Below, one piece after another: positions 37,933 through 59,779 of a DNA stretch of 64,000 nt. Both the position numbers and the translations under genes were made by a program. The notes under the pieces are model-generated. The model ran no database searches, was not told the DNA's origin, and saw nothing but the letters and a program-made list of their open reading frames with translations. The DNA lies in assembly GCA_020847175.1 (NCBI GenBank), contig JADLCM010000001.1, forward strand, positions 124,001 through 188,000, written 5' to 3'. Numbering within the stretch: position 1 is the stretch's first letter; each line of letters starts with the position of its first letter. Source of the DNA: Phycisphaerales bacterium. GTDB taxonomy: Bacteria > Planctomycetota > Phycisphaerae > Phycisphaerales > UBA1924.

Positions 37933-38631
37933 TCAGCGCCGTCCCCGGGCCCGCATGCGCCTGCCCGGCGCCGCCTCGTCCTCAACCTCGGCCTCGCCGT
38001 AGAAGCCGCGGTACACCCACGCCTTCACGCCGATTGCGCCGTAGGCCGTGAACGCTTCGGCGAACCCATACTCAACCCGCGCCTGGAACGTCGAGAGCGG
38101 GAGCGACCCGAGCTTGACTTCCAGCGTGCGACTCATCTCGGCACCGCCGAGACGACCCGAGAGCGAAATCTTCACACCCTTGGCGCCCGCGGCCATCGCA
38201 CCCTCGGCGCGGGTCTTGACGACCCGGCGGAATGCAGCGCGACGCTTGAGCTGCTCGGCGACGCTCTCGGCGACGAGTTGGGCATCGATGTCCGGGTTCT
38301 TGATCTCCACGATTGAGATCGCGACCTTGCGCCCGGTCATGAACTGGAGCTCCTGCGTCATCCGCTCGACCTCGGCGCCCTTGGGCCCGATGACCAGGCC
38401 CGGACGCGCGGTGCGGAGAATGACCTTGAGCTCCTCGCGCGTGCGCTCGATGTGAATGTCGGCCACGGCCGCGTTCGGGGGCCGGCGGTTGAGGCGCTGG
38501 TCGAGGAACCGGCGGATCTTCTCGTCCTCGACGAGCAGTTCGCCGTACAGCGCCTTCGGGGCGTACCAGCGGCTGCGGTGCGCCTCGGTGATGCCGAGCC
38601 GAAGCCCGAATGGATGGGTCTTCTGTCCCAT
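37933..38631 (-). CDS. rpsC: 30S ribosomal protein S3
   Basis: mRNA-entry-channel protein with a KH domain. The 232-residue sequence starts MGQKTHPFGLRLGITEAHRS, has the KH loop LVIGPKGAEVERMTQEL, and the C-terminal EYGFAEAFTAYGAIGVKAWV. It ends in an Arg-rich tail. Its ATG shares one base with the rplV stop (TAATG), so the genes are translationally coupled. Confidence 0.97.
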   Translation of the reverse strand: MGQKTHPFGLRLGITEAHRSRWYAPKALYGELLVEDEKIRRFLDQRLNRRPPNAAVADIHIERTREELKVILRTARPGLVIGPKGAEVERMTQELQFMTGRKVAISIVEIKNPDIDAQLVAESVAEQLKRRAAFRRVVKTRAEGAMAAGAKGVKISLSGRLGGAEMSRTLEVKLGSLPLSTFQARVEYGFAEAFTAYGAIGVKAWVYRGFYGEAEVEDEAAPGRRMRARGRR

Positions 38632-39176
38632 TAGGCTCGCTCCTCCACGCCCACGATGATGTGGCTGGTTTCCTTGAGAATCGGGTGGGCCCGTCCGCGA
38701 TCCTTGGGATGGAATCGCTTGAGCTTGGGCCCTTCGTTCACGCGGCTGAGCGTCACCACGAGCTCGCCCGGGTCCGCGTCATACTGGCGTGCATCCGCCA
38801 TCGCCGCGTTGAGGCACTTGCGGATGTTGACCGCCGCCCGCTTGTCGCTGAACCGCAGGATCGTGTCCGCGTCCTGGGCCCGCTTGCCGCGGATCAGGTC
38901 GGCGACGAGGCGGGTCTTGCGGGTGCTGCCGCGCGAGAAGGTGACGCGGCTCTCGAAGAGCGCGATCTCGCGCGGGGCGGCCCCCACGGCCTCGGCGAGC
39001 TTCGCCACGTCCTGGGCCTTGCAGCGCGGGTGGTCGCGCCCCGAGAGCCAGTTCTGCAGCGCGCTGCGGGCGTGGTCGCCCTCAAGGCCGGTGCGCTCGA
39101 TGGCCTGCGCCAGCTGGTCCACGCTGACGTTGGCACGCAGCGCTCGAAGCATGAGTTTGTCGGGCTGGAGTCTCAC
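38631..39176 (-). CDS. rplV: 50S ribosomal protein L22 with N-terminal helix-turn-helix-like domain
   Basis: Large-subunit protein lining the exit tunnel. The L22 part spans about residues 77-181: TFSRGSTRKTRLVADLIRGK, the DARQYDADPGELVV loop, and GPKLKRFHPKDRGRAHPILK before HIIVGVEE. In front lies an extra domain of about 75 residues with the pattern of a Cro/C1-type helix-turn-helix: DQLAQAIERTG, ARSALQNWLSGRDHP, then KAQDVAKLAEAVGAAPREI. Typical L22 proteins lack it. The start is the GTG at 39176, with GAGGGTGAT upstream. A downstream ATG in the same frame (codon 9) would still keep the extra domain. rpsS lies upstream. Confidence 0.93.
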   Translation of the reverse strand: MRLQPDKLMLRALRANVSVDQLAQAIERTGLEGDHARSALQNWLSGRDHPRCKAQDVAKLAEAVGAAPREIALFESRVTFSRGSTRKTRLVADLIRGKRAQDADTILRFSDKRAAVNIRKCLNAAMADARQYDADPGELVVTLSRVNEGPKLKRFHPKDRGRAHPILKETSHIIVGVEERA

Positions 39177-39220: not shown

Positions 39221-39514
39221 TCAGGCCTTCTTCTCGCCCACGTCGATGCCTTCCTTCTTGTTCGTGTGCCCCTTGAAGAGGCGGCTGATGGAGAACTCGC
39301 CGAGCTTGTGCCCGACCATGTCCTCCGTCACGAACACGTCGATGAACACGCGCCCGTTGTGGACCTTGAACGTCTGGCCCACGAACTCGGGCACGATCGT
39401 GCACGCCCGCGCCCACGTCTTGATGGGCTCGCGCTTGCCGGTCTGCACGATGCGCTCCACCCGCCGGTAGAGCCGCTCGTCAACATACGGACCTTTCTTC
39501 GAACTTCTGCCCAT
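39221..39514 (-). CDS. rpsS: 30S ribosomal protein S19
   Basis: Small-subunit head protein. The 97-residue product begins [20 protein letters not shown] and contains [20 protein letters not shown] and [20 protein letters not shown], all diagnostic. The length is normal. It lies between rplB and rplV. Confidence 0.97.
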
Positions 39515-58735: not shown

Positions 58736-59779
58736 CTACGCGGCGGCGTAGCGGACGGGCTCGGCGTGGAAGTACTTCTTCACGATCTCGGGCTGTCGCT
58801 GGGTGCCGCGGAGGTATGCCCGCAGGTCGGCGATCATCTGCGCGCGGTGGGCCGGACGCCGGCGCCCCAGCGCGTTGGCCTTCACGTCGTTGTTGAGGAA
58901 CTCGTCGGGGTTGAGGTCGGGGCTGTAGGCGGGGAGGAGGAACAGCTCGATCGTGCCGGCGTTGGCCTCGGCCCAGCGGCGCACCGCCGCGGCCTTGTGC
59001 ACCGGGTGGCCATCGAGGATCAGGAACACCTTCCGCCCCCGCGAGCCGGCGTGGCGCACCAGCCGCCTGAGGAACCGCAGCATCACCGCCGCCGTGAACC
59101 GCTCGGTGAAGACCATGAACGCCAGCGTCCCGCGGTTGGTCACCGTCGAGATCATCTTGCAGCCGAAGCGCTGGCCCGTGCCCGGGATCACGGGCGTCAC
59201 TCCGGCCCGGGAGTAGCTGGTGCCCGTCTGGTGATCGCTCCGCAGTCCCATCTCGTCGCCCCAGTGAATCTCGGCGTTTTCCCGCTTGGCGCGGCGGACG
59301 ATCGCGGGGTACTGCTCGTCCAGCCACTTCCGCACCGCCACGGGATCGCGTTCGCAGGCGCGCCGCATCGGCTTCTGCGGCGTCAGGCCCCAGCCCCGCA
59401 GATACCGGCCCACCGTGGAGCGCGAGAGCGTCACCCCGAAGCGCCGCCGCGCCAGTTCGATCACGGCATCGCGTGTCCACAACGCGAGGGGCAGGCGGAG
59501 CTGGTCCGGGCACGACGCCGTGATGGAGCGGACGACCGTCGCGGCCTGTTGCGGACGGAGCATCCGCGTGCCCGGCTTGGGGCCGCGCTTGCGGGCCCGC
59601 AGCGCCGCCATACCGCCCTCCTCGACGGCGGCGGTCCAGTTGTGAACGGACTGCCGGGTCACGCCGAAGGTGCGGGCGGACTCGGTCTTGCCCATCCCGC
59701 CACGGACCGCCGCGAGCACGCGCCGGCGAAGATCCTCCTGGGCTTGCGGCGGCAGCTTCCGTGCATCCGGCCTGGGCAT
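58736..59779 (-). CDS. IS630-family transposase
   Basis: A 347-residue DDE transposase. The N-terminal helix-turn-helix region (ESARTFGVTRQSVHNWTAAV) and a second one (LSRSTVGRYLRGWGLTPQKP) bind the terminal repeats. The catalytic triad regions are visible: the first Asp in IHWGDEMGLRSDH, the second in FLILDGHPVHKA, and a third acidic site in LPAYSPDLNPDEFLNNDVK. The frame is complete, so the element may be active. A promoter inside the right inverted repeat would start transcription at or next to the ATG. Confidence 0.95.
   Translation of the reverse strand: MPRPDARKLPPQAQEDLRRRVLAAVRGGMGKTESARTFGVTRQSVHNWTAAVEEGGMAALRARKRGPKPGTRMLRPQQAATVVRSITASCPDQLRLPLALWTRDAVIELARRRFGVTLSRSTVGRYLRGWGLTPQKPMRRACERDPVAVRKWLDEQYPAIVRRAKRENAEIHWGDEMGLRSDHQTGTSYSRAGVTPVIPGTGQRFGCKMISTVTNRGTLAFMVFTERFTAAVMLRFLRRLVRHAGSRGRKVFLILDGHPVHKAAAVRRWAEANAGTIELFLLPAYSPDLNPDEFLNNDVKANALGRRRPAHRAQMIADLRAYLRGTQRQPEIVKKYFHAEPVRYAAA

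Follow-up and report, generated by a model that had tools for sequence, protein, structure and literature searches.

An N-terminal Cro/C1-type helix-turn-helix domain fused to ribosomal protein uL22 in two groups of the Phycisphaerae, and its possible role on the ribosome

The only rplV gene of the Phycisphaerales genome considered here encodes a 181-residue fusion, in which a Cro/C1-type helix-turn-helix (HTH) domain stands ahead of a complete uL22, a universal ribosomal protein that lines the nascent-chain tunnel. The fusion is genuine, of old origin and maintained by selection, and it occurs in two groups of the class. Concerning its function, the preferred reading, with a probability of about 0.5, is that the HTH stays on the large subunit as a permanent and rigidly joined domain whose nucleic-acid face grips rRNA, i.e. 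a lineage-specific structural element near the exit tunnel and not a gene regulator.

The rplV locus and its N-terminal domain

In the window (the whole 64,000-nucleotide stretch of DNA analyzed, with a GC content of 0.68), all the features described below lie on the minus strand. The fusion is contained in a single open frame at 38631..39176, with a GTG start codon at 39176-39174 and a stop codon at 38633-38631. It is located between rpsS (S19; 39221..39514), whose stop codon is 44 bases from the rplV start, and rpsC (S3; 37933..38631), whose start overlaps the rplV stop, that is, in the position of uL22 in a standard S10 operon. A search of the genome showed rplV to be a single-copy gene. 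Its product was recognized by PF00237 (Ribosomal_L22, residues 80-177; E 6e-29, 100.7 bits versus a cut-off of 28) and by TIGR01044 (E 7e-28, 96.8 bits versus a cut-off of 73.65), and Pfam and NCBIfam together located L22 at residues 79-177. When compared with solved L22 chains, the L22 part gave Z values around 18 (VIA-align), residue 72 of the model corresponding to L22 residue 1. From these three sources, the canonical uL22 core comprises residues 72-181 (38634..38963), including the tunnel hairpin (KRFHPKDRGRAHPI), and is a complete uL22 with the usual fold. The difference from bacterial uL22 (TIGR01044/PF00237) is the 71-residue globular HTH that precedes the residue with which L22 normally begins. 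Among the solved L22 chains listed for the model, which match the core, a few have short N-terminal tails and none was seen with an HTH.

Elsewhere in the window, the L5 gene (35282-35992) encodes 236 residues and is extended N-terminally by about 50 residues rich in Lys, Pro and Gly, and a 347-residue frame (58736-59779) looks, by eye, like an IS630-type transposase (TESARTFGVTRQSVHNW).

The HTH domain (residues 1-71; 38964..39176) was predicted by AlphaFold2 with pLDDT values of 94-95. The model of the whole protein, built with 60 related sequences, had a pLDDT of 95.1 and a pTM of 0.85, and residues 1-76 modelled alone gave a pLDDT of 94.0. The predicted domain shows a five-helix, lambda-repressor-like fold. 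According to DSSP, it is formed by helix 1 (residues 5-15; 39132..39164), helix 2 (residues 19-25; 39102..39122), helix 3 (residues 34-44; 39045..39077), helix 4 (residues 54-63; 38988..39017) and helix 5 (residues 68-71; 38964..38975). By homology, helix 3, which carries the conserved pair N42-W43, would be the recognition helix. It is preceded by a long loop (residues 26-33; 39078..39101) which in the alignments bears an R-x-G-[LIFM] signature. The model has no linker between HTH and L22, as helix 5 runs directly into L22 strand 1 at residue 72.

The PDB matches listed for the N-terminal model were mainly Cro/C1 HTH proteins: C.Csp231I was the best (Z 8.9), followed by SinR (8.2), C.AhdI (8.0), P22 c2 (7.8) and 434 Cro (7.1). 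Other fold matches were chain 7o81_AU of a rabbit 80S entry, which we take to be EDF1 (Z 7.1), and the Cro-like domains found in HEPD and HppE. These Z values, of 7-9, are in the middle range, and the best Foldseek E-value, 0.026, is modest, as would be expected of a helical domain of 76 residues. At the sequence level, the Pfam model HTH_31 matched the N-terminal part of the window protein alone with E 3.5e-5, below the Pfam gathering score. Among the members of its family, HTH_31 matched 33 of 44 (best E 9.6e-7) and HTH_26 matched 16 of 44 (best E 4.5e-7), most members being matched by HTH_31 or another Cro/C1 model. Sequence searches against solved structures gave weak matches and nothing stronger. 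The assignment of the predicted domain as an HTH rests on the consistent fold hits and the sequence models taken together.

An earlier note on this DNA had proposed that L22 is fused to an N-terminal Cro/C1-like HTH. The single frame, the predicted fold and the HTH models bear this out, with a wider occurrence than was supposed. The AlphaFold prediction for residues 1-76, suggested there as a check, returned an HTH, and the motifs picked out were correct, the loop before helix 3 appearing longer than in common repressors. The limits then given have to be shifted, as the HTH corresponds to residues 1-71 rather than to about 17-73, and the L22 fold begins around residue 72 instead of 77.

In alignments of both groups of fusions, N42, W43 and P50 are invariant (the NW pair in A2 and A5), with few exceptions among individual members. 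The loop signature is present in most fused L22 proteins of both clades, with variable loop length. The mean net charge of the HTH is +4.9 in one group and +3.6 in the other, that of the window protein being weakly basic (+2). As a whole, the HTH is more variable than the L22 core. Judging by alignment to the 434 repressor, the invariant Asn of helix 3 probably faces nucleic acid, and the binding face looks retained, given the three invariant residues and the positive net charge.

Reality, distribution and history of the fusion

As GC-rich DNA often holds long chance frames, it was considered whether the extension is an annotation artefact, with the true L22 start near residue 72 and an upstream frame kept open by chance. 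This candidate was rejected, being practically incompatible with the conservation of the start and the selection acting on the HTH. Start positions were read directly in 48 relatives, 45 from the window's own family (window counted) and three from a second family of the same order. The distance from the start codon to the NW pair was 41 codons in most own-family members, 43-45 in those with a longer loop, and 38 in the second family. Near the L22 core, ATG, GTG and TTG codons are absent from the window and from several relatives. In several genomes, a stop codon occurs one or two codons upstream of the HTH start, which rules out any earlier start of the frame in them. In neighbouring families without the HTH, L22 begins with ATG about four residues ahead of the core. 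The dN/dS ratio of the HTH was 0.05-0.35 in nine pairs, with lower values for the L22 core; the HTH is under purifying selection. The junction length is constant across families of both clades, and homologous sequence is present in many genomes of the class, as follows.

A survey of rplV across the Phycisphaerae, proposed in the earlier note, was extended to a class sample of 397 genomes from 275 genera, scanned with an HTH profile. The domain was detected in about a third of the genomes (137/397, belonging to 89 genera), which fall into two groups. One of them is in the window's own order, formed by its family (f1), with the HTH in 44/44 genomes of the class sample, and by the second family (f5), with three carriers. 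Three further f5 carriers came from the order sample, one of them frame-shifted: in genome G459 (L224, around contig position 2801600) a single-base shift breaks the HTH frame just before the NW pair, which could reflect an error in sequencing or a copy in decay. The other group is a far clade with carriers in families f12, f17, f19, f22, f23, f25 and f26. The 30 far-clade loci read were all L22 fusions of about 182 residues, starting with M-L-S or similar. Two of these families gave unusual sequences: in f17, the near-identical genomes of L209 and L210 have a divergent HTH without the R-x-G-L loop signature, and in f12, L211 has a long insert within the HTH.

The families lying between the two groups have no HTH. 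An initial candidate, that the fusion was confined to the window's family and its neighbour, was overturned by the class-wide scan. On the other side, no match was obtained outside the class in a phylum sample at a profile E-value of 1e-6. Close families have either lost the HTH or never acquired it, so that the ribosomes of the class do not all require it. Within the own family, 96 of 100 genomes had an L22 match, in open frames of at least 182 residues apart from extra fragments. Among named genomes, 44 loci were found by a scan, most of them in metagenome-assembled genomes called Phycisphaerales or Phycisphaeraceae, and at 43 of them, all except L123, the HTH was followed by script into L22. 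The identification of the class as Phycisphaerae is based on these named records.

The homology of the domain in the two groups was studied with a far-clade HTH profile built without own-order sequences and run against 23 genomes. It found the L22 of seven own-order genomes with E-values from 5.6e-14 to 2.5e-19, while the next best place in the 23 genomes had E 0.027. Profile-profile comparison of the own-order and far-clade HTHs gave E 4.6e-27, with 38% identity over 72 columns. Since the two profiles match each other far above other HTHs in the searched genomes, the domain is homologous and L22-specific; these matches, together with the common loop, NW pair and P, indicate that the fusions of both groups carry the same domain. 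A separate HTH paralogue that could be its source was not found in the window's genome; elsewhere, apart from L22, the far-clade profile gave E 0.027 or worse in the 23 genomes, and the own-order profile gave one weak match (E 7e-4) in a genome of the order.

The seven far families form one clade (SH-aLRT 98) in a tree built from S19, S3, L2 and L16, while f1 and f5 are in another clade beside the unfused f2, f3 and f4, and unfused families lie between the groups. The joining of f1 and f5 as one clade with a single gain was tried and discarded: the 23S tree places the unfused f4 with f1 (AU p 0.031), although the protein tree leaves the branching order of f1, f4 and f5 undecided. The L22-core tree matches the pattern of the S19, S3, L2 and L16 tree, but weakly, and in the HTH tree f1, f5 and the far clade stand apart from one another. 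The L22 cores of f1 and f5 group with their own order, against a transfer of whole rplV between groups. When all fused cores were forced together, the tree was 18.7 log units worse than the free one, but at an AU p of 0.13 such a transfer stays among the candidates. Both an old gain followed by several losses and one old transfer of the fused N-terminus fit these results, and it seems unlikely that so unusual an HTH was fused twice independently.

Possible role of the domain on the ribosome

The fixed length, the rigid junction, the near-universal retention within families and the purifying selection argue for a ribosomal role over an accident. It may be interpreted that, in an old event, the first residue of L22 was joined to a Cro/C1-type HTH, which the two groups of Phycisphaerae retained as a permanent, rigid domain. 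Judging from the point of attachment, it would remain on the mature 50S subunit, at the ribosome surface, on the solvent side by the L22 N-terminus. The old nucleic-acid face, formed by helix 3 and by the basic loop that follows, would now grip rRNA, and the HTH would act as a structural element near the exit tunnel instead of as a regulator. Since this face is conserved between orders, its partner could well be an invariant one, such as rRNA. The EDF1/Mbf1 factor offers an analogy, as its Cro/C1 HTH is placed on the ribosome between rRNA helices h16 and h33 (PMC7486125), and a comparable use of the face on rRNA is the best reading for the fusion. The weakly basic character of the window's HTH suggests caution about an rRNA role, and so do the Cro-like domains of HppE and HEPD, in which the fold persists although no nucleic-acid role is known for it.

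The compensation of an rRNA loss or gain by the HTH was a candidate explanation that was rejected, as no fused-specific 23S indel was found in the own order. This is a weak negative, and since no 23S indel tracks the fusion in that order, no particular rRNA partner is singled out. In the 23S alignment (loci L147-L172 and L179), f1, f4 and f5 have in common a deletion of about 15 nt in the region of E. coli positions 1481-1520, which marks that subclade rather than the fusion, f4 being unfused. Large 23S insertions were also observed in G018 (L172; about 290 nt, at E. coli 1841-1880) and in G172 (L167; about 310 nt, at E. coli 521-560), both of them possible introns or intervening sequences.

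The main rival to the reading of rRNA is the docking of exit-tunnel factors by protein-protein contact. The HTH would then be a platform at the tunnel exit that covers or reshapes the L22 surface used by peptide deformylase (PDF) and methionine aminopeptidase (MetAP), or recruits another nascent-chain factor. Near the tunnel exit, L22 is bound by the C-terminal helix of PDF, with MetAP as a competitor for the site (PMC8712518), the HTH is joined to the first residue of L22, and its variability exceeds that of the core, all of which is in line with docking. Several of its most conserved positions, however, are in helix 3 and the following turn, not in a new patch, and this role is considered unlikely.

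DNA-binding repression is the usual role of Cro/C1 folds, and autoregulation of their own operons is frequent among ribosomal proteins. It could be thus that free HTH-L22, when L22 is in excess, moonlights as a repressor of its own operon through an operator or leader. Upstream of S10, however, there is no inverted repeat common to 17 genomes, nor was a conserved operator found in them or between the window and a same-genus sister species, which is a weak negative, and the invariance of N42 in both groups is a better fit to one invariant target than to drifting operators. Altogether, autoregulation looks quite improbable.

Another alternative is that the HTH acts only before or during assembly, as a leader which helps L22 to fold or to be delivered and is afterwards cleaved off or left disordered, like the ubiquitin of the eukaryotic ubiquitin-ribosomal fusions. 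The N-terminal place of a small domain that is predicted to fold independently would suit such a leader, but the straight passage from helix 5 to L22 strand 1, without linker or cleavage-like stretch, and a junction length kept across families of both clades make it very improbable.

Relation to known proteins and significance

The comparison with known systems locates the fusion among several partial likenesses. With EDF1/Mbf1 of eukaryotes and archaea it shares the Cro/C1 HTH and, only as a proposal in the case of the fusion, the rRNA contact on the ribosome (PMC7486125). EDF1/Mbf1 is a separate factor on the small subunit, whereas the HTH of the fusion is a covalent part of a large-subunit protein, and the likeness observed between them is one of fold. 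The N-terminal domain or archaeal zinc ribbon that precedes the HTH in MBF1 was not found: the HTH of the fusion begins at residue 1-5, with L22 behind it. With Cro/C1 (XRE) repressors such as SinR, P22 c2 and 434 Cro, it shares the five-helix fold, the W in helix 3 and the G-x-x-P turn, but it differs from them by a longer loop between helices 2 and 3, by the attached ribosomal protein and by the operator not found upstream of S10. The oxygenases HppE and HEPD, which are among the closest fold matches, also have a Cro-like HTH on a non-regulatory protein, although they are enzymes not related to the ribosome. Finally, the PRK12279 fusion of L22 with an unknown domain (NF008917) consists also of L22 plus an extra domain, and its model matches the L22 part of the window protein, but there L22 comes first, at profile positions 13-106 of 311, and is followed by the extra part, while here the HTH is in front.

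No description of the L22-HTH fusion, sought also among planctomycete ribosomal extensions, was found in the searchable literature, which leaves most subscription papers outside its scope; within it, the statement that no description was known holds. Domain-bearing ribosomal proteins were already known, including the L22 with an extra part behind, and what appears to be new is the N-terminal Cro/C1 HTH on uL22. For genome annotation, since L22 in these groups has about 180 residues, its trimming to 110 would remove a real domain.

With somewhat less than even confidence, it is proposed that a fold typical of transcription factors was recruited into the ribosome as a structural or factor-docking element, through an ancient, class-level fusion to uL22 that remodelled the large subunit near the exit tunnel and is present in two distant groups, lost or absent elsewhere, and with the nucleic-acid face directed towards rRNA. 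A folded domain of DNA-binding type welded to uL22 across a large bacterial group would be a new element of ribosome architecture, with a bearing on how domains are gained by ribosomal proteins. If the proposal is true, it would also join EDF1/MBF1 as a second example of a repressor fold at work on ribosomes.
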